Position numbers and translations under genes: made by a program
Virus record (IMG/VR): IMGVR_UViG_3300045051_000594
Location: 1-40,297 of that record
Length of the DNA stretch: 40,297 bases
Direction: 5' to 3' (one strand)
Source: a virus
The notes under the pieces: model-generated
Database searches by the model: none
What the model saw: the letters and a program-made list of their open reading frames with translations, nothing else
What the model was told of the DNA's origin: nothing
Part shown: in pieces, positions 5,252-27,245 of the stretch
How the letters are laid out: every line of letters starts with the position of its first letter
Numbering within the stretch: position 1 is the first letter of the stretch

Positions 5252-5282
5252 GCCCCCAGGCCACCCCTGGGGGCTTTCTTTT
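5252..5282 (+). terminator. Intrinsic terminator closing the tail/lysis operon
   Basis: A perfect 9-bp stem (5252-5260 with 5266-5274, GCCCCCAGG/CCTGGGGGC) has a 5-base loop and is followed at once by TTTCTTTT. It lies 33 bp after the last lysis-cassette stop. It is the clearest end of a transcription unit in the window. Confidence 0.9.
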
Positions 5283-5557
5283 GCCCTACGGCTGTATAGT
5301 AGTTTCCCCAGGAAATCGTATCTTTCGCCCTGAAATTAGACTAAAAATCTGGACACGGGCCCGTGGTGGGTATACGGTATAGATGTTCGATGGTTGTTTG
5401 ACAGCGTGCAGCGGGTGAGATCAGGCGGGGCCGAGGGCAAGAGACCAAGGCGCCGCGCGGTGGGGCACCAGCACAATAGCAGAGCAGGGCGGCGCAGCAA
5501 AGCGCGGCCCTAATGCGGCAACCCCCGTTGCAAGCCCGGGGGTAGAAGGAGGCCAAA
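5283..5557 (+). promoter_or_regulatory. Intergenic control region with palindromes
   Basis: No gene is visible in these 275 bases. The first ~110 bases are much more A+T-rich than the rest of the window, as expected for a promoter. Two perfect inverted repeats lie close together: CACGGGCCCGTG at 5354-5365 and TATACGGTATA at 5371-5381, separated by five bases. They could be operators. A TTGACA at 5398-5403 has no good -10 at the right distance, and TATAGA at 5378-5383 has no good -35, so the promoter itself cannot be fixed. The 3' end carries the first two-hairpin leader. Confidence 0.45.
5486..5552 (+). promoter_or_regulatory. Two-hairpin leader, copy A
   Basis: Hairpin I pairs 5486-5495 with 5502-5511 (AGGGC-GCGC with one G-G mismatch). 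After a TAATGCGGC linker, hairpin II pairs CCCCCG 5522-5527 with CGGGGG 5537-5542 around the 9-base loop TTGCAAGCC. The ribosome site AGAAGGAGG follows directly, then the GTG at 5558. The same plan recurs before 5826 and 6448 with different stem bases but a kept AAGC in loop II, so selection seems to act on RNA structure. Confidence 0.6.
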
Positions 5558-5749
5558 GTGGCCCGTTCAACTTTCACCCTTTCCATCCCGTCCGGCACCG
5601 TGGTGCTGGGCGAGCAGGGGACCATCACCCTGAAAGCAAGCGCCGTTGTGGACGGCGCCACGCGCGAGCGTGACGGTTCCTACCGCTACCTGGTGGGCGG
5701 CCACCAGTACATAGCAAGCGCGGGCACCGTCACGGCGGTGCGCGCGTAA
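5558..5749 (+). CDS. Hypothetical protein, 63 residues
   Basis: GTG 5558 is chosen because AGAAGGAGG lies 5-6 bases upstream, behind the structured leader. The small protein is mostly beta-like (FTLSIPSGTVVLGEQGTITLKASAVVDG), with a short charged turn and a Val-rich end, and has no membrane segment or known motif. It begins the series of small genes after the 5252 terminator, so it is probably expressed early. Function unknown. Confidence 0.6.
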   Translation: MARSTFTLSIPSGTVVLGEQGTITLKASAVVDGATRERDGSYRYLVGGHQYIASAGTVTAVRA

Positions 5750-5759
5750 GGCAGAGTCA

Positions 5760-5818
5760 CCCCGCTGGCGCGGCGGGGCGTAATGCGGCGGCCCGGTGAC
5801 AAGCCCCGGGCGAAAGGA
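5760..5818 (+). promoter_or_regulatory. Two-hairpin leader, copy B
   Basis: Hairpin I pairs CCCCGC 5760-5765 with GCGGGG 5773-5778. The linker CGTAATGCGGC nearly repeats that of copy A. Hairpin II pairs GCCCGG 5791-5796 with CCGGGC 5806-5811 around the 9-base loop TGACAAGCC. GAAAGGA follows as ribosome site for ATG 5826. Stem II differs from copy A on both strands in a pairing-preserving way, while loop end AAGCC and linker are conserved. Confidence 0.6.
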
Positions 5819-5825
5819 TGAGACA

Positions 5826-6155
5826 ATGAAGGTGGTGATTTCCTACGTGCTTAGGGGCCAGCGGTGCAGCGAGACCGTGGAGGCCGAGTCTCCGGAGAAA
5901 GCGTCCCAGGCCTTTATGCGGCGGGCGACGCTGGTGACCAGCTGCATGGCCCGCCCCGCGGCGGACGAGGCCCAGGGCTGGCTGGTGCGCACTGGCCAGG
6001 ACCTGCTGGTGGCCATGGGCGCGGAATGGACCAAGGCGCGCAGCAATCCCGCGGACGTGGCGGCGGTGCAGCGGTACAGCCTGCTGGCCCTGGCCCGCGC
6101 GGAAGTGTACAGCCTGATAGCGGAGAGCAACGGGCTGGGGCGGCTGGCGATATGA
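5826..6155 (+). CDS. Hypothetical protein, 109 residues
   Basis: ATG 5826 follows GAAAGGA by 8 bases, so the longer frame starting upstream is rejected because it would translate the leader hairpin. The first ~20 residues form a beta hairpin-like stretch (KVVISYVLRGQRCSETVEAES) and the rest is predicted helical, Ala- and Arg-rich and amphipathic. No family is recognised. It overlaps the next gene by 4 bp, so the two are probably co-translated. Confidence 0.6.
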   Translation: MKVVISYVLRGQRCSETVEAESPEKASQAFMRRATLVTSCMARPAADEAQGWLVRTGQDLLVAMGAEWTKARSNPADVAAVQRYSLLALARAEVYSLIAESNGLGRLAI

Positions 6156-6367
6156 CGCGGCCGCTGTGGCTTTCACCAGCCCAGGCCATGCGCCTGGTGC
6201 TGAAGGCCCAGCAGCTCCACGGCGAGAGCATCACCCCATGCGGCGGCAAGGCCTGGGGTGAGTGCTTCACCCTGGAGCAGGGCCGGGTGATTTTCTGGTA
6301 CAACCTGGGCCCCGACACGCACGCGGTGATAGAGCCGCACGACGTCGGTGCCCTGGTGGAAGGGTGA
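6152..6367 (+). CDS. Hypothetical protein, 71 residues
   Basis: ATG 6152 overlaps the TGA of the previous gene. The protein has a helical N-terminal third (SPAQAMRLVLKAQQLHG) and a beta-like remainder with two Cys (PCGG, ECF) and several aromatic residues (RVIFWYNLGPDTHAVIEP). It resembles a compact globular domain, but no family is recognised. Its stop is followed by the third two-hairpin leader. Confidence 0.55.
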   Translation: MTRPLWLSPAQAMRLVLKAQQLHGESITPCGGKAWGECFTLEQGRVIFWYNLGPDTHAVIEPHDVGALVEG

Positions 6368-6374
6368 CGGGCGG

Positions 6375-6439
6375 GCGGGGCCCAGCTGGCCCCGCGCGTT
6401 AAACCGCGGCCCCCGTCCGAAGCCGGGGGCAGAAAGGAA
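6375..6439 (+). promoter_or_regulatory. Two-hairpin leader, copy C
   Basis: Hairpin I pairs GCGGGGC 6375-6381 with GCCCCGC 6389-6395. A GCGTTAAACCGCG linker follows, weakly like TAATGCGGC of copies A and B. Hairpin II pairs GCCCCCG 6409-6415 with CGGGGGC 6424-6430 around TCCGAAGC. AGAAAGGA then precedes GTG 6448. This third instance uses other stem bases but keeps the two-stem plan, the AAGC loop end and the adjoining A-rich ribosome site. Confidence 0.58.
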
Positions 6440-6447
6440 GGGCGAAA

Positions 6448-6591
6448 GTGTCTATCGTGATAGTGCGCACCCACGGCGGTGCCGTGGTGGTGGTGGGCGG
6501 GTGGGGAGAACGGCGCGCCAGCGCGTTGATGTCTCTGGTGGCCGCGCGTGAGCTCGCGCGTAAGCTGCGCAAGCGGCGGAGGGCGGGGTGA
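6448..6591 (+). CDS. Hypothetical basic 47-residue protein
   Basis: GTG 6448 follows AGAAAGGAAGGG. The product starts with a very Val-rich stretch (IVIVRTHGGAVVVVGGW) and ends with a strongly basic helix (ARELARKLRKRRRAG). The basic end could bind nucleic acid, while the hydrophobic start seems too short and Gly-rich for a sure membrane helix. It overlaps the next gene by 4 bp. No family recognised. Confidence 0.45.
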   Translation: MSIVIVRTHGGAVVVVGGWGERRASALMSLVAARELARKLRKRRRAG

Positions 6592-6875
6592 AGCGCAAGG
6601 GCAAGAGAACGGCCGCGGAGCACCGCGGCACACCCTCCGCGCTGTGGTGCGTGGACGACATAGTGCAGCTGGCCCAGCAGGGCGGGCTGCACCTGGCGGA
6701 CGACCAGGTGGCCGACGTGGTGGCCGCGGCCAATTCCCGCAAAACCTACCCCCTGGGCCCGACCTGGGGGGAGGTGCGCCAGCTGGTGGAGCGGGCGGCC
6801 GCGGAGCCGCCCAAGGCAAAGCGCAAGCCGCGTACGCGCGCCGCGGAGCCCGAGCTGGCCCTGGGGATCCGGTGA
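6588..6875 (+). CDS. Hypothetical protein, 95 residues
   Basis: GTG 6588 overlaps the preceding TGA. Basic ends (KRKGKRTAAEHR; KAKRKPRTRAAEPE) flank a mixed helical core with CVDDIVQLAQQ and a Trp-Gly-Glu turn. The basic flanks suggest nucleic-acid contact, but there is no defined motif. The gene is part of a run of short, overlapping genes ending at 7051. Function unknown. Confidence 0.5.
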   Translation: MKRKGKRTAAEHRGTPSALWCVDDIVQLAQQGGLHLADDQVADVVAAANSRKTYPLGPTWGEVRQLVERAAAEPPKAKRKPRTRAAEPELALGIR

Positions 6876-7051
6876 GCGGCGCCGCGGCGGCCGACTGGGA
6901 CCGCATGGCGGCCCTGGTGGTGGCGGAGACCACGCGGCTGTGGAATCGGCCCTATCCCCTGGGGGGCAGCAGCCGGGCGACGGAGAGAATGCGGGACGCG
7001 GAGGAGGAGCTCATCCACCTGTACAACGCGGCCCACGGGCCTTTGGAATGA
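6872..7051 (+). CDS. Hypothetical protein, 59 residues
   Basis: GTG 6872 overlaps the upstream stop by 4 bp. The short, mostly helical protein has an Ala-rich start, a Trp-Asn-Arg-Pro-Tyr turn and an acidic C-terminal helix (MRDAEEELIHLYNAA). No family or membrane segment is seen. Its stop at 7049-7051 is followed within 4 bases by a strong 8-bp hairpin. Confidence 0.45.
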   Translation: MSGAAAADWDRMAALVVAETTRLWNRPYPLGGSSRATERMRDAEEELIHLYNAAHGPLE

Positions 7052-7054
7052 AAC

Positions 7055-7074
7055 CCGGGGGCGTATGCCCCCGG
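7055..7074 (+). other. Strong hairpin after the small-gene cluster
   Basis: CCGGGGGC (7055-7062) pairs with GCCCCCGG (7067-7074) around a GTAT loop. No T-run follows (ACATTT), so it is at best a weak terminator or an mRNA 3'-end stabiliser. A further CCCCC/GGGGG hairpin at 7110-7123 is followed by AATGAAAGGAGG, which looks like a ribosome site although no convincing gene follows. Confidence 0.6.
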
Positions 7075-7228
7075 ACATTTGGGCGCCGCGCCCCCGGAAG
7101 CGCGCGGGACCCCCACCTGGGGGAATGAAAGGAGGCCTCCTGGGGCCCAGTGACTGACGCGACAAGGTACACCGGAGCGGAGAGCCGAGGGGGTTCCTTG
7201 CCTCGTGTCTGTCAAATCCTCCTTACTT

Positions 7229-7749: not shown

Positions 7750-8700
7750 ATGGCGGAGAAAGAGACCGGGGGGCACCAGCCCGTGGTGGTGGCCGCGGAG
7801 GTGGTGGCACCCAAGGGCGGGAGTGCTGAGGGCAAGCCGATGCGGCGGAAGCCGGCGGCCAGCCCCGCCAAGCGGCAGCCCAGGACGGCGCCCGCGGCGC
7901 GGGACGTGACCCCGCTGGCACTGATAGCCCGCGCGGTGAACAGCGGCATGCCCGTAGAGACCATCGAACGGCTGACCCTGCTTTGGGAAAAGGGCGTGGC
8001 CCAGCAGGCCAAGCACGAATACTTTGACGCGTTCTCACGGCTGCAGGCCAAGCTGCCTATCATCGGGCGGACGCGGACGGTGAACAACAAGGCCAGCACG
8101 GCGAAAGAGCACGGCAAGGTGCGGTTCCGCTATGCGCCCGTGGAGCAAATCGTGGGCGAGGTGGCGCCGCTGCTGGGGGAGGAGGGCTTTTCCTACTCAT
8201 TCAAGCCCGCGCAGCCCAGGGCCGTGGACGGGGTGCACTGGCTGGACGTGCCGTGCACGCTGCACCACCGCGGCGGCCACGAGGAAACCGCCACGTTTCC
8301 CAGCCCCGTGGCATCGGCCGCGGAGCGGCAAACCCTGGGCTGGACGTTTGCCCAGGCCATCACGTCGGCGCAAACCTACGGCCGGCGGAACGCGTTCATT
8401 GCCGTGGTGGGCATAATGACCGCGGACCCCGAGGGGACCCCGGGCGTGGAGCCTGGGGACGAGCCCGAGGGGGACGTGCGGGCCGCCAGTGAGACGGCCG
8501 CGGCGGCTGGCGCGGCGCCCACCCAGGAGCAACTGCAGGCCGCATATCAGAAGGTGCAGGGCCTGGTGGCGGAGAAAGCCCGCGGGAAAGCCGCGGATAC
8601 GTTCCTGGCCACCGCGAGCAAGCACCTGCAGGCGGGGCGCGTGGACCTGCTGGACGCCATGGCCGCGAGCCTGGCGGGGATGCGCCAGGGCACCAAGTGA
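7750..8700 (+). CDS. erf: ERF-family single-strand annealing protein
   Basis: The 316-residue protein has a disordered Pro/Ala/Lys-rich start (~50 residues) and then the ERF core: FDAFSRLQAKLPII, a basic RTRTVNNKA turn, RFRYAPVEQIV, VAPLLGEEGFSYSF, and QTLGWTFAQAITSAQTYGRRNAF, matching the conserved core of the Erf superfamily. Such proteins form rings on ssDNA and pair complementary strands, aiding genome circularisation or recombination-dependent replication. ATG 7750 is chosen from AGGAGG six bases upstream. A PD-(D/E)XK nuclease lies two genes downstream and probably supplies the resected ends. Confidence 0.88.
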   Translation: MAEKETGGHQPVVVAAEVVAPKGGSAEGKPMRRKPAASPAKRQPRTAPAARDVTPLALIARAVNSGMPVETIERLTLLWEKGVAQQAKHEYFDAFSRLQAKLPIIGRTRTVNNKASTAKEHGKVRFRYAPVEQIVGEVAPLLGEEGFSYSFKPAQPRAVDGVHWLDVPCTLHHRGGHEETATFPSPVASAAERQTLGWTFAQAITSAQTYGRRNAFIAVVGIMTADPEGTPGVEPGDEPEGDVRAASETAAAAGAAPTQEQLQAAYQKVQGLVAEKARGKAADTFLATASKHLQAGRVDLLDAMAASLAGMRQGTK

Positions 8701-10127: not shown

Positions 10128-10393
10128 CCGAACACGGGGTATACGTGCACGTGCGGGTGGACGCTGCCGAGGCCACCAGGGCGCTGCGGCGGGCCCTGGC
10201 GCGGCTGCGGCAGCTGGGGGGTGCAACCATCACGGGGAACAACCTGCGGGGCGTGGTGCTGGCGTCCCAGTTGACGGCACGCGGCCGCGGGGCGAGGTGG
10301 GCGGCATGGGGTCCCATGCTGCACGGTTTCGACGCCGGGGGGCGCGCCCTGGCGGTGGCGCGCGTGACGCGGCGCCAATGGGGGGAGCTGTGA
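10124..10393 (+). CDS. Hypothetical basic protein, 89 residues
   Basis: ATG 10124 overlaps the nuclease stop (ATGA). The protein starts with a beta strand (GVYVHVRVDAAEA), followed by a basic amphipathic helix (TRALRRALARLRQL) and a Gly/Arg-rich remainder with a Trp-Ala-Ala-Trp-Gly turn. It is basic overall and may bind DNA together with its neighbours. No family recognised. It overlaps the DnaQ-like gene at 10390. Confidence 0.5.
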   Translation: MTEHGVYVHVRVDAAEATRALRRALARLRQLGGATITGNNLRGVVLASQLTARGRGARWAAWGPMLHGFDAGGRALAVARVTRRQWGEL

Positions 10394-11064
10394 AAATCCT
10401 ATGGTTTGACATAGAGACAACGGGGCTGGACCCGAAGCGGCACGCCATCATAGAGCTGGCGTACAAGGTGGACCTGGACGGCCAGGTGGTGGCGGAGGGC
10501 ACGCTCACGGCAAACGCTGACGGCCGCGAGATTGACGACACGGCCCTGAAGGTGAACGGGCGCACGCGGGAGTGGATCGCGGCGCAGCCTTCACAGCGCG
10601 AGCTGTACACCCGCCTGCTGGCGGTGCTGGACAAGCACGTCGACCGATACAAGCCGGGGGACAAGTTCCACCCGGGCGGCTATAACCTAAAGTTTGACGT
10701 GGAGTTCCTATGGGAGCTCTGGAAGGCCCAGGAGGATAAGTACCTGGGCAGCTATTTCTTTTTCGGCCGCCTGGACCCCGCGGAGCTCATCGGCTGGCTG
10801 AAATGGACGGGCAAGCTGCCCGGCTTCCCGCCCAAGGCCACCCTGGTTGACGTGGCGCGCTACCTGGGCCTGGACGTGGCCGGGGCCCACGGCGGCCTGG
10901 TGGACGTCAACCTGGCCCGCGAGGTGGCGCTGCGCATGCGCGCGGTGCTCCAGGGCCTGAACGTGAAGCCGCGGCGCCAGTGTCCAGATTGCAAGGGCCG
11001 TGCTGCGGGCCCTGACGCGCCGGAATGCCCGCGGTGCGACGGCACTGGGTGGATAGAAGAATGA
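10390..11064 (+). CDS. DnaQ-like DEDDh 3'-5' exonuclease with zinc ribbon
   Basis: All three exonuclease motifs are present: Asp7/Glu9 in FDIETTG, Asp103 in YNLKFDVEFL, and His167/Asp172 in AHGGLVDV. A C-terminal tail carries four cysteines (198, 201, 213, 216: CPDC...CPRC), a likely zinc ribbon not usual in bare DnaQ domains. The enzyme would trim ssDNA or RNA 3' ends during replication or recombination. GTG 10390 makes a 4-bp overlap with the previous stop; ATG 10378 is an alternative four codons upstream. Confidence 0.85.
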   Translation: MKILWFDIETTGLDPKRHAIIELAYKVDLDGQVVAEGTLTANADGREIDDTALKVNGRTREWIAAQPSQRELYTRLLAVLDKHVDRYKPGDKFHPGGYNLKFDVEFLWELWKAQEDKYLGSYFFFGRLDPAELIGWLKWTGKLPGFPPKATLVDVARYLGLDVAGAHGGLVDVNLAREVALRMRAVLQGLNVKPRRQCPDCKGRAAGPDAPECPRCDGTGWIEE

Positions 11065-13935: not shown

Positions 13936-14397
13936 TTGAAAAAGAAGGAGAAGGGAAAGCGCCCCGCGAAGCCCGCGGCCGCACCCGAGTACAAGGGCCT
14001 GGAGACCATCCTGGGACCCTATGCCCTGGTGGAGTTTTCGTTTCCCGCCAAGCCGAAGGGCAAGGACCTGGGCGGAATGAAACTGCACCTGACCTTTGAG
14101 GCGGACTATCATGCGCTGACCGAGGGCGCGCTGGACCAGGTGGCCCGCCTGGCCCACGCCACGGGCCAGCTGTCGTTTTCCGCCCGCCCGGATCCGGCTG
14201 CGGCTGCGCGAGCTGCTGCGGCTGCTGCTGGCAAGCCGGAGAAGGCCAGCAAGGACCTGCCGGGCCAGATGCCGCTGCCGCTGCCCGAGCCCGGGACCGA
14301 GAGCCCCAAGGCGGAGCTCCGCCGCGGATCGAAGGCCGCCGCGGACAAGCCCGCGCGGGCCCCGCGGAAGGCGCCGGCGCACAGCGAGATAAAGTGA
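13936..14397 (+). CDS. Hypothetical protein with disordered basic ends
   Basis: TTG 13936 follows GAGGTG; the ATG at 13930 is out of frame and stops at once. The 153-residue product has a Lys-rich start (KKKEKGKRPAKP), a folded-looking middle (about 22-85: LETILGPYALVEFSFPAK, MKLHLTFEADY, VARLAHATGQLSFSA) and an Ala/Pro/Lys-rich tail. The GGMKLHLTFEA section suggests a small alpha/beta fold. It is followed by a hairpin and the ParB-like gene. No family recognised. Confidence 0.5.
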   Translation: MKKKEKGKRPAKPAAAPEYKGLETILGPYALVEFSFPAKPKGKDLGGMKLHLTFEADYHALTEGALDQVARLAHATGQLSFSARPDPAAAARAAAAAAGKPEKASKDLPGQMPLPLPEPGTESPKAELRRGSKAAADKPARAPRKAPAHSEIK

Positions 14398-14403
14398 GCT
14401 CAC

Positions 14404-14427
14404 GGCGGGGGCCCTGGCGCCCCCGCC
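14404..14427 (+). other. 9-bp hairpin before the ParB-like gene
   Basis: GGCGGGGGC (14404-14412) pairs perfectly with GCCCCCGCC (14419-14427) around CCTGGC-type loop bases. TATCC rather than a T-run follows, so it is probably a leader hairpin or RNA-processing element and not a strong terminator. The ribosome site GACGGAGGACGG begins about 12 bases later. Confidence 0.5.
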
Positions 14428-14450
14428 TATCCTGGACGACGGAGGACGGA

Positions 14451-16058
14451 ATGAGCAAAGCAACGGAGGCGCGAGTGCTGATAGCGGTGGCCGACCTGGT
14501 GCCACGGCCCGGCAACCGCGAGCGCGGGGGACTGGACAAGGAAAAGCTGGCCGACCTGTCCGAGAGCCTAAAAAAGCGCCAGCTGAATGACCTGCTGGTG
14601 CGCACCGCGGGAGACGGGAAATACGAAATCATGGCAGGAAACCGCCGCTTGGCCGCCGCCAAGCTGGCGGGCCTGGACGTTCTTGCCTGCAGGGTGCTGG
14701 ACGTACAGGACGACCTGGAGGCCTCCGTGGTGGCCGCCGTGGACAACCTGCAACGCGAGGGCCTGCACCCCCTGGATGAATCGGACGGAATCAAGGGCCT
14801 GGTGGCCCTGGCCACGGAGCGCTGCGCCGAGGATCCGGTGGCGGAAGCTGCCGCAAAGCTGGGCATGACGGAATACTACGTGCGCCAGCGCTTGTCCTTG
14901 CAAAACCTGGTGCCCGCGGCGCGCGCCAAGCTGCTGAGCGGGGCCGCCCCCCTGGCAAACTGCCTCATGCTGGCCCGCTACCCCAAGGAGGCGCAGCTGG
15001 AGCTCATGCGGGAGCGCGCCTGGGCCCTGACCGACCGGGACGCGGAGGACCTGCACAGCATGCTGGAGAGTGACCGCCGCGAGCTGGGCGGGGCCTATTT
15101 CGACCGCGCGGACCTGACGCTGGTGCCGAAGGCCGGAGCCTGCGCGGTGTGCCCGAAGCGGACGGGCCACGAGCCCATGCTGTTCCCCGAGGTAAAGAAG
15201 GGGGACCGCTGCCTGGACGGTAAGTGCTGGAACGCCAAGCTGGCCGCCCACGTGGCAAAGACGAAGGCGGAGCTGGCGAAAGAGCCCGGGCACCTGCTGC
15301 TTTCGGAGCATTTCGGGACCCACGAGGCTGGGGTGCTGCCCAGCGATACCTGGGAGCAGGTGAAAAAGAGCGAGCAGGGCGCGCTGCCCGCCCTGGTGGT
15401 GGAGGGTCCCAGCACCGGCGCCGTGGTATACGCGCGGCGCGTGGCCCATAGCAGCGTGCCCGCGGTCCGCGGGGAGAGCCCCGCCGCGGTGGAGAAGCGC
15501 CGGGCGGCCCTGGCGGACCAGAAAATCAAGGCCGAGGCCCGCAAGGCTGGCCAGCAAAAGCTGCTGGCGGAGACCCTGGCGGTGCTGGCCCCCCGTTTCG
15601 AAGGCCTTTTCAACCGCGAACAGACGGCGGTGCTGCAGGTGCTGGCGCACCATGCGATAGACCGCACTACCTGGGACCTGCTGCCCGTGGTGGGCAAGGC
15701 GCTGGGCTGGGAGCCGCGGAAACGCCAGTACGGCGGGCTGGACTGGGCCGCGGCTGGAAAGAAATACGCCCAGGGCGCGGACGGGGTGCAGCTGGTGCTG
15801 CTTATGGTGCGCCTGGCCACCGCCGGCGCGCTGGTGGGGACCCAGGGCCAGGACTCCGGCGCCGCGCTGACGGCCATGGCCACGGCCGCGGGCCTGGACC
15901 CCGAGCGGGTGCGCTTTGCAGCTGCCGCGGTGACGCTGCGCGAGGGGCGCAAGGCGGAGAAGCTGCGGGCCCAGCGCCGGGCGGCGCGTGCGGCCAAGGC
16001 CGCGGACAAGCCGCCGGCGGGGAAGAAACCCGCCAAGCGGAAGGCGGTGGCGAAATGA
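14451..16058 (+). CDS. ParB/KorB-family DNA-binding protein with zinc ribbon
   Basis: The 535-residue protein has a ParB N-terminal domain (about 8-115) with IMAGNRRLAAAKLAG in place of the GERR box and NLQREGLHPLDE, which matches the ENLQRxxLxPxEE signature. A KorB/Spo0J-type helix-turn-helix follows (AAAKLGMTEYYVRQRLSL), then a Cys module CAVCPKR...CLDGKCW (four Cys) typical of long phage and plasmid ParB relatives, and a Lys/Ala-rich tail. No ParA gene is present, so plasmid-like partition is doubtful. CTP-dependent clamp, nuclease or transcription roles are possible. ATG 14451 follows GACGGAGGACGG. Confidence 0.8.
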   Translation: MSKATEARVLIAVADLVPRPGNRERGGLDKEKLADLSESLKKRQLNDLLVRTAGDGKYEIMAGNRRLAAAKLAGLDVLACRVLDVQDDLEASVVAAVDNLQREGLHPLDESDGIKGLVALATERCAEDPVAEAAAKLGMTEYYVRQRLSLQNLVPAARAKLLSGAAPLANCLMLARYPKEAQLELMRERAWALTDRDAEDLHSMLESDRRELGGAYFDRADLTLVPKAGACAVCPKRTGHEPMLFPEVKKGDRCLDGKCWNAKLAAHVAKTKAELAKEPGHLLLSEHFGTHEAGVLPSDTWEQVKKSEQGALPALVVEGPSTGAVVYARRVAHSSVPAVRGESPAAVEKRRAALADQKIKAEARKAGQQKLLAETLAVLAPRFEGLFNREQTAVLQVLAHHAIDRTTWDLLPVVGKALGWEPRKRQYGGLDWAAAGKKYAQGADGVQLVLLMVRLATAGALVGTQGQDSGAALTAMATAAGLDPERVRFAAAAVTLREGRKAEKLRAQRRAARAAKAADKPPAGKKPAKRKAVAK

Positions 16059-25049: not shown

Positions 25050-27245
25050 ATGACCAGGGGGGGTAAGCGCGTGGTGAGCTCCAGCAGCGCCGGCAAGGCC
25101 AGGGCGCGAGCCCACGCCCGGGAGCGCCGCCTGGCGCTTGCCTCGCGCACCGCCGTGGTGGGGGTGCCTGGCAATACGGGCTATTTCGGATACCAAGTCA
25201 CCGGGGAGTACCTGAAAACGCTGGACGGCCAGAAGGGCCGAAAGGTGTTTGACGAAATGTACCGGTCAGACCCCCAGGTGCAGGCCACCATGAAGGCCAT
25301 TACCCTGCCGATTCGCAGTTGCCCTTTCACCATCGAACCACCCGCGGATCCCGAGGGCAAGGTGGACGACCTGGACGCCGAGATAGCAGAGGTGATGAGC
25401 GAGCGGCTTTTCCGCGGAATGTCCATGACCTGGGACGACACGCTGCGGCACGCGCTCATCATGCTGCGCAGCGGCTTTTCCATCCTGGAGAAGGTGTGGG
25501 AAGTTTCGGACGGCCTGGTGATGCCGAAGAAACTGGACCCGCGGCTGCCTGGCTCTGTGATCCGCTGGGAGTTCGACCGAGTGAGCGGCAGCCTGGTGGG
25601 GCCCGTGCAGCAGGACCTGGACGGAAAGCTAATCACCCTGCCGATTGAAAAACTGCTGGTGTTCACCAGTGAACGCGAGGGCGACAACTGGGAGGGAATG
25701 TCCGTGCTCCGCCCGGCATACAAACCCTGGTACATCAAGGACCAGCTGGAGAAAATCAACGCCATCAAGCACGACCGCCACGGGGTGGGCGTACCGCGGG
25801 CCAAGGTGCCGGCGGGCGTGAAGCCCGGGGACGAATCCTGGGAGGCCGTGGTGGCGGGCCTGGAAGCGCTGTACGCAAATGAGCGCAGCTACGTCATAGA
25901 CCCGGATGGCTACACCACGGACCTGCTGGGCGGCGGGGACTCCGCGGCGGGGACCGACGCGCTGCCCAGCATCAAGCATTACAACGAGGACATTGCGAAG
26001 GCCGCCCTGGCCATGTTCATAAACCTGGGCACCAGCGACACGGGCAGCCGCGCCCTGGGCCTTTCCTTCGTGGAGCTGTTCCAGCTGTCCATTCAAGCAT
26101 ACGCGGACTACCTGGCCGCGGTGCTTGACCGTTTCCTCATCAAGGAATGGTGGGGGTACAACTGGGACACGCCCGCGGGCCCGCCCTGCCTGAAGGCCGG
26201 GCGCATCAAGCCGATTGACTCCGCGGTGCTCGCGCAGCTCTCCACCGCCGGGGTGATAAAGCCCGACGATGAGCTGGAGAACGCCGTGCGCGAGCTCATG
26301 CACCTGCCCCAGCGCAAGACGCCCCGGCCGGCGCCCACCCCGCCGCCGGCCCCGGGCGCAGCGCCTGGCGCGCCGGATCCGGCCGCGGCCCAGGATGAGC
26401 CCGCCACCGACACGCCCCAGGACGAGCCCGCGGACGCTCCGCCCGTGGAGGACGTGAAGGCCAGCATGCGCGTTCACCTGTCCATGGCCACGCCCACCGA
26501 CGAGGAAAAGCTGACCGACTGGCAAGGTATGGGGCTGCGCCTGGCCAGCGAAACCGCGGACCTGTCCGGGCAGCTGCAGGCCATGCGGGACCTGCAAGCC
26601 CGGGACCTGATAGCCCAGGCCATGGGCGGGCGCAAAGTTCAGGATATGCGCGTTCCGATGCGCAAGGAAATGTATGACGCCCTGGTGGCGGCCTACCGCG
26701 CGGAGAAAAAACGCGGCACCAATGACGTCGTGACCGAGATCGTGCGCCAGCGCCCGGACCTGAAAATGGCGGACCCGCGGCGCAAGGCCAAAGTCACCGC
26801 GGCGCAATTCGACGCTTACAGCCTGGACCAGCTTTCCCTGGACGTGGAGCGCCAGGCCGACACGCTGCGCAGCGCGGTAGCCACGTGGTTCATCGACCTA
26901 CGCAAGAGCGGCCTCCAGGGCGAGCAGCTGAGAATCGCCATGCAAGCTATGTATGACGAAATGAGCACCAGCGGCCTGGACCTGCTGGCTGGCGGCGCCG
27001 TTGACAAGGGCTGGGGATCCGGGCGAATGACGGGCCTGGAGGAAGTGGCCGACGAAATCCAGTATTGCTATCGCTCCGCCATCCTGGACACAAACGCGTG
27101 CGAGGTGTGCCGGGCGAAAGATGGGACCCACCACGAGCTGGGGGACCCCGAGTATCAGACCCCGGACCCCGAGTGCCTGGGGACGGACCGCCGCTGCCGC
27201 TGTATGACGATCGCGGTGATGAAGGAGGAGGGCGCTGGTGCGTGA
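25050..27245 (+). CDS. Portal fused to MuF-like minor head protein
   Basis: Residues ~35-420 resemble Mu gp29/DUF935 portals: YLKTLDGQKGRKVFDEMYRSDPQVQATMKAI, a WDDTLRHALIMLRSGFSILEKVWE block and NWEGMSVLRPAYKPW. A Pro/Ala/Asp-rich linker (~420-475) leads to a C-terminal part that ends in YRSAILDTNACEVCRAKDGTHHEL...CLGTDRRCRC, the Cys/His signature of Mu gpF-type head morphogenesis proteins. Mu encodes these as separate genes; here one 731-residue frame carries both. The portal forms the packaging ring and MuF assists head assembly. ATG 25050 follows GGGAGGGG. Confidence 0.86.
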   Translation: MTRGGKRVVSSSSAGKARARAHARERRLALASRTAVVGVPGNTGYFGYQVTGEYLKTLDGQKGRKVFDEMYRSDPQVQATMKAITLPIRSCPFTIEPPADPEGKVDDLDAEIAEVMSERLFRGMSMTWDDTLRHALIMLRSGFSILEKVWEVSDGLVMPKKLDPRLPGSVIRWEFDRVSGSLVGPVQQDLDGKLITLPIEKLLVFTSEREGDNWEGMSVLRPAYKPWYIKDQLEKINAIKHDRHGVGVPRAKVPAGVKPGDESWEAVVAGLEALYANERSYVIDPDGYTTDLLGGGDSAAGTDALPSIKHYNEDIAKAALAMFINLGTSDTGSRALGLSFVELFQLSIQAYADYLAAVLDRFLIKEWWGYNWDTPAGPPCLKAGRIKPIDSAVLAQLSTAGVIKPDDELENAVRELMHLPQRKTPRPAPTPPPAPGAAPGAPDPAAAQDEPATDTPQDEPADAPPVEDVKASMRVHLSMATPTDEEKLTDWQGMGLRLASETADLSGQLQAMRDLQARDLIAQAMGGRKVQDMRVPMRKEMYDALVAAYRAEKKRGTNDVVTEIVRQRPDLKMADPRRKAKVTAAQFDAYSLDQLSLDVERQADTLRSAVATWFIDLRKSGLQGEQLRIAMQAMYDEMSTSGLDLLAGGAVDKGWGSGRMTGLEEVADEIQYCYRSAILDTNACEVCRAKDGTHHELGDPEYQTPDPECLGTDRRCRCMTIAVMKEEGAGA

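Follow-up and report, generated by a model that had tools for sequence, protein, structure and literature searches.

Predicted type-P5 twister ribozymes ahead of the gene blocks of a small-gene phage operon

The window, by which we mean the whole stretch of DNA analysed, is an IMG/VR virus record of 40,297 bases with a GC content of 68%. The phage that it represents has no near relatives in the collections searched; a DNA search for close relatives found none, and searches of IMG/VR with the Erf and exonuclease proteins likewise revealed no close relatives of this phage. A PHROGs search with the 624-aa ORF at 4-1878 gave no match. The window encodes, among others, the following proteins:

7750-8700, Erf-like annealing protein
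10306-11064, RNase_T exonuclease
14394-16058, ParB-like protein
25050-27245, portal, with best matches (32-34% identical) in Arthrobacter phages

The region of interest is a run of small genes with three repeated RNA elements, herein copies A, B and C, whose limits are approximate:

5252..5284, plus strand, terminator-like hairpin (intrinsic type) with a 9-bp stem followed by TTTCTTTT, which closes the preceding gene group
5478..5543, plus strand, copy A, predicted type-P5 twister
5546..5552, plus strand, ribosome site AAGGAGG, 2 nt past P4 of copy A
5558..5749, plus strand, gene 1, 63 aa, GTG start, no match in PHROGs
5750..5811, plus strand, copy B, predicted type-P5 twister
5813..5818, plus strand, ribosome site AAAGGA, 1 nt past P4 of copy B
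5826..6155, plus strand, gene 2, 109 aa, no match in PHROGs, ATGA overlap with gene 3
6152..6367, plus strand, gene 3, 71 aa, with its stop TGA (6365-6367) inside copy C
6363..6430, plus strand, copy C, predicted type-P5 twister with a covaried P2
6432..6438, plus strand, ribosome site GAAAGGA, 1 nt past P4 of copy C
6448-6591, 6588-6875 and 6872-7051, plus strand, genes 4, 5 and 6, joined by GTGA overlaps

The order is terminator-like hairpin, A, gene 1, B, genes 2-3, C, genes 4-5-6. Each copy heads a gene block, the genes within blocks 2-3 and 4-5-6 overlapping, and none lies inside a block. Copy B starts one base past the gene 1 stop. A strong GC hairpin (CCGGGGGCGTATGCCCCCGG) at 7054-7075, right past the gene 6 stop, has no T tract and is not a twister.

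A sequence-only reading of this region had described three copies of a two-hairpin leader, each with a linker and a conserved loop. Our analysis confirmed the three copies, directly 5' of the starts at 5558, 5826 and 6448 and with the layout described, and the hairpin stems pair as reported there (CCCCCG/CGGGGG, GCCCGG/CCGGGC, GCCCCCG/CGGGGGC). The arguments first put forward, the hairpins and the linker, proved weak given the 68% GC of this DNA: z-scores for folding were an unremarkable -1.5 (A), -0.4 (B) and -1.0 (C), and the linker TAATGCGGC, with one mismatch allowed, was found 9 times compared with 9.4 expected from shuffles. These folding energies and the GC-rich genome would suit chance GC-rich hairpins, or terminators or attenuators, without ribozyme ancestry. 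We regard such an origin as highly improbable, and it is already strongly disfavoured: terminator calls are absent at all three copies, where terminator and sigma-70 promoter searches gave no support, and three end-to-end Rfam matches each lie just ahead of a ribosome site. In addition, a twister descriptor that fixed GA, UAA, GC and G-U-NNN-AAGC and required P2, T1, P1 and P4 pairing matched the window, searched on both strands, exactly three times, at A, B and C, and matched none of 1000 dinucleotide shuffles. The descriptor was written after the copies had been seen and tolerates their small departures, making the shuffle figure somewhat favourable; zero in 1000 nevertheless leaves ample room. 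It is P2 and the pseudoknots T1 and T2, all missed by the sequence-only reading, that lift the elements far above chance.

The twister class was found by Roth et al. 2014 (reviewed in PMC5408937). An Rfam scan at the gathering threshold gave no matches in the window. At a relaxed threshold, all three copies matched Twister-P5 (RF02684), with 35.2 bits for A (5478-5539), 29.3 bits for B (5750-5809) and 35.0 bits for C (6363-6427), and no other place in the window scored near them; searched with RF02684 alone, the E-values were 1.9e-7, 5.9e-6 and 2.1e-7, respectively. All three scores fall short of the RF02684 gathering score of 37.6 bits, which is why the default scan was empty; that score is a curation threshold without pseudoknots and not a structural feature. 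Each copy aligns end to end with the model (positions 1 to 58), and the permutation is type P5 in all three, P1 being loop-closed and the termini open beyond P2 and P4.

A first pattern scan of IMG/VR with the linker and loop gave mostly chance matches or coding repeats, which were left out. Among the remainder was a well-defined family, GCAGAG-UGA-[hairpin]-UAAUGCGGC-[stem]-GGUCACAAGCCCGG, which occurs up to six times per contig. Rfam calls this family Twister-P5, RF02684, at up to 68 bits. The three window elements are thus predicted type-P5 twisters, apparently new and slightly diverged representatives of an established class of self-cleaving ribozymes. The proposal of a selected, structured RNA element stands, and the new two-hairpin leader gives way to a double-pseudoknot twister fold. 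Real twister copies can score under default Rfam thresholds, and Rfam models leave pseudoknots unscored.

We mapped the copies onto the published twister structure (PMC5408937). On this mapping, hairpin I is P1, the linker comprises the cleavage site U|AA, one P2 strand and the T2 GC, and hairpin II is P4. What the sequence-only reading had missed is the 5' strand, which holds a P2 strand, the catalytic GA and the T1 triple. The parts are as follows (all plus strand):

Copy A: P2 5479-5481/5514-5516; GA 5482-5483; T1 5484-5486/5529-5531; P1 5487-5510; predicted cleavage 5511|5512; T2 GC 5534-5535 with 5518-5519; P4 5521-5527/5537-5543
Copy B: P2 5751-5753/5784-5786; GA 5754-5755; T1 5756-5758/5798-5800; predicted cleavage 5781|5782; P4 5791-5796/5806-5811
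Copy C: P2 6363-6365/6403-6405; GA 6366-6367; T1 6368-6370/6417-6419; P1 6371-6399; predicted cleavage 6400|6401; P4 6409-6415/6424-6430

The cleavage-site U|AA lies at the 3' side of P1 in all three copies (TAA at 5511, 5781 and 6400); in copy B, two unpaired bases (CG) come between P1 and the cleavage-site U, an arrangement also seen in some of the other phage copies. The L1 GA, which includes the catalytic guanine, is present at 5482, 5754 and 6366 and, equated by position, would correspond to G45-A46 of the O. sativa ribozyme. The outer stem P2 has 3 bp, GCA/UGC in A and B and GGU/ACC in C; the linker of copy C had appeared divergent because the two inner P2 pairs have changed there in both strands. 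This change is possibly tied to the gene 3 stop UGA, which falls in P2 and L1 of copy C. Pseudoknot T1 joins L1, at the nucleotides that directly precede hairpin I, to the hairpin II loop; its three pairs are all Watson-Crick in every copy, and their sequence differs each time (GCA/UGC in A, GUC/GAC in B and CGG/CCG in C). Both sides of T2, which pairs the linker (L2) GC with the GC of the AAGC loop (L4), are present in each copy, as are the invariant G-C pair of P4 and the loop U..A pair (G-U-NNN-AA-GC-(C)-C). The core letters U|AA, GA, GC and U..AAGC match those of solved twisters (compared via PMC5408937), and the conservation of loop and linker is, judged by this correspondence, that of the twister catalytic core.

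The copies also depart from the consensus. P2 has three pairs in each, short of the four-pair form, the fourth position being A.G in A, G.G in B and absent in C, in which the 3-bp P2 directly adjoins T2, and altered P2 length may harm the twister active site (PMC5408937). Four pairs are not strictly defining, as the fourth pair is absent in 5 of 68 scored copies, A and B included. In A and B the loss is accompanied by one extra C ahead of the 3' strand of P4, after the T2 GC, such that T2 could be GGC/GCC; this arrangement suggests that the P2+T2 stack of these copies would stay at six pairs, 3+3 instead of 4+2. The same double change occurs in one copy on another contig (L151:6297-6359). Among the 68 scorable copies the extra C is found in 3 of 5 that have lost the fourth P2 pair and in 1 of 63 that have not (Fisher p 8e-4), a post hoc association in which A and B share one genome.

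Small departures in every copy, sub-threshold scores and ribosome sites only 1-2 nt past P4 would be in keeping with twister descendants that no longer cut, their P1 and P4 now only forming leader hairpins by which the ribosome site is shielded or tuned, which is near the view of the sequence-only reading. We judge this quite unlikely, as all core letters and the T1 complementarity are kept while the T1 sequences differ, and a plain hairpin leader needs no T1.

A covariance-model search over phages, the check proposed in the sequence-only reading, indeed produced numerous additional copies in which loop and linker are conserved. Our model, R1, was built from 14 copies of other phages. On the window, with filters off, its two best places were A (33.3 bits) and B (38.5 bits); copy C gave just a partial match of 12.4 bits because R1 had seen only GCA/UGC in P2. 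Over the fetched phage contigs, the R1 matches came to 77 distinct rows, A and B included. In these rows T1 was paired in 99.1% of cells and showed 34 two-sided changes compared with 4.8 in shuffles, none of 500 shuffles reaching as high, and slid versions were almost devoid of covariation. Since covariance models leave T1 unpaired, T1 provides an independent test. T2 shows compensated changes in other phages. The inner P2 pairs were invariant among the phage rows, the search pattern having required them.

Contigs with two to seven type-P5 twister copies are common. Seven are present on IMGVR_UViG_3300036900_000199 (L171, L203), and six, five and four on L098, L144 and L210, respectively; such many-copy contigs mostly carry one ahead of each small gene. 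Proteins encoded downstream of the ribozymes belonged to 42 PHROGs families; the 25 of these that were listed all lack an assigned function, and no functional theme emerged. Arthrobacter, Gordonia, Acidovorax and Variovorax phages with distant portal or ParB relatives gave no twister match, and control genomes were equally silent. A BLAST match in Mycobacterium phage Luchador was not a twister.

In phages, the usual location of a type-P5 twister is the gap that separates a stop codon from the following ribosome site. A start codon with a ribosome site lies within 40 nt of 52 of 85 phage copies (three of them from the window), compared with 10% of random positions. The ribozyme starts between -6 and +10 nt from a stop codon in 45 of 78 phage copies, counting stops that end open frames of at least 50 codons, compared with 7% of random positions. 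The controls were random positions and not gene junctions, and these figures therefore establish placement between genes, not a preference among junctions. In a dozen phage copies (e.g. L142 3078-3145 and L098 3861-3919; upstop -10), the upstream frame ends at the UGA of the ribozyme's GAGUGA motif. In these copies the T1 region may also serve as the stop codon, though the pattern could partly be chance, since the motif always contains UGA.

From these data we propose that each window copy is probably a type-P5 twister that cuts the operon transcript into translation blocks and that cutting likely sets mRNA ends and block output. The fold, pseudoknot complementarity, catalytic-core letters and position can be read from the DNA itself, cleavage is expected from class membership, and its consequence for expression could go either way, towards stabilisation or destabilisation. 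Each twister would cut the nascent operon RNA at U|AA, 3' of P1, yielding three translation blocks: gene 1, genes 2-3 and genes 4-5-6. The new 3' end, on the upstream piece, would consist of the P1 hairpin and carry a 2',3'-cyclic phosphate; the new 5' end, on the downstream piece, would be 5'-OH-AA, with P4 next and the ribosome site 1-2 nt past P4. The likely use would be to fix mRNA ends independently of host nucleases, and thereby how stable each block is and how much it yields relative to the others. Counting against this proposal are the scores, all under the gathering score, the P2 and P4 departures of A and B and the short P2 of C. The sequence-only reading had offered control of translation or of mRNA processing; mRNA processing is the favoured part, and hairpin control of translation is not needed to explain the conservation.

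Active twisters could also serve to lower or time expression. The 5'-OH product might be degraded; in Bacillus, the product of the glmS ribozyme has its 5'-OH end recognised and is then degraded. Alternatively, terminating upstream ribosomes might gate folding or cleavage, as suggested by the stop codon inside copy C, the one that ends at the base before copy B and the 45 of 78 phage copies that start -6 to +10 nt from a stop, so close that a terminating ribosome would cover P2. Such gating cannot be general, as copy A has no nearby upstream gene, only the terminator-like hairpin at 5252-5284. Overall, we consider lowering or timing of expression unlikely, and favour the division of the operon transcript into blocks. 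More broadly, it is possible, and we suggest only tentatively, that phages use twister arrays as general protein-free cutters at gene-block boundaries, between stop codon and ribosome site, the 3+3 sub-form included.

The window copies share with RF02684 the P1 hairpin, U|AA, P2, the T2 GC, the P4 U-NNN-AAGC loop, T1 and termini open at the P5 side. They differ in scoring just under gathering, in the 3-bp P2, extra C and perhaps longer T2 of A and B, and in the P2 GGU/ACC of copy C with a stop codon inside the element. A parallel in placement is provided by Tunturi_4 (PP885687.1; L315, L317-L320), a cultured Tunturiibacter phage with four type-P5 twisters of 48-62 bits, above threshold:

58349-63149, minus strand, four twisters between genes gp78-gp87, beside a DNA polymerase processivity factor and a methyltransferase

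Three start 0-4 nt past the gene before them; the remaining one is found shortly 5' of gp87. The Tunturi_4 record has no ribozyme annotation for these elements, and the Tunturi_4 paper does not mention ribozymes. As in the window, several type-P5 twisters are placed between genes; unlike the window, Tunturi_4 has higher scores, is a larger phage and has a host in Acidobacteriota.

The SAS/ESAS of cluster K mycobacteriophages are, like the window copies, repeated inverted-repeat elements just before small phage genes; they are not known to have a twister core. Hammerhead and twister ribozymes have been found near Mu-like phage genes in bacteria (PMC10085705). Those self-cleaving ribozymes are associated with particular Mu-like genes, whereas the window has an array that divides a small-gene operon without known relatives. 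The role of self-cleaving ribozymes in phages and bacteria is described in the literature as still open (PMC6155905; PMC10085705). That the elements fit so closely between stop codon and ribosome site, in the window as in dozens of other phage contigs, suggests that mRNA is cut where gene blocks meet; Tunturi_4, a cultured phage-host pair with four copies, makes the role directly testable. The finding is ordinary in kind, as the enzyme class is known, and the operon architecture is the interesting part; an earlier description may exist beyond the openly licensed papers that made up the literature searched.

Other ribozyme arrangements were observed among the phage contigs. On the minus strand of L011, a type II hammerhead and a type-P5 twister (888-952, 1434-1487) lie ~500 nt apart, two ribozyme classes thus sharing one gene group. 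In L024, L059 and L103, the linker and P4 come first, followed by GCAGAGUGC, an order that resembles the alternative twister permutation (P1 open). A ROOL RNA and many tRNAs are present on L103 as well.
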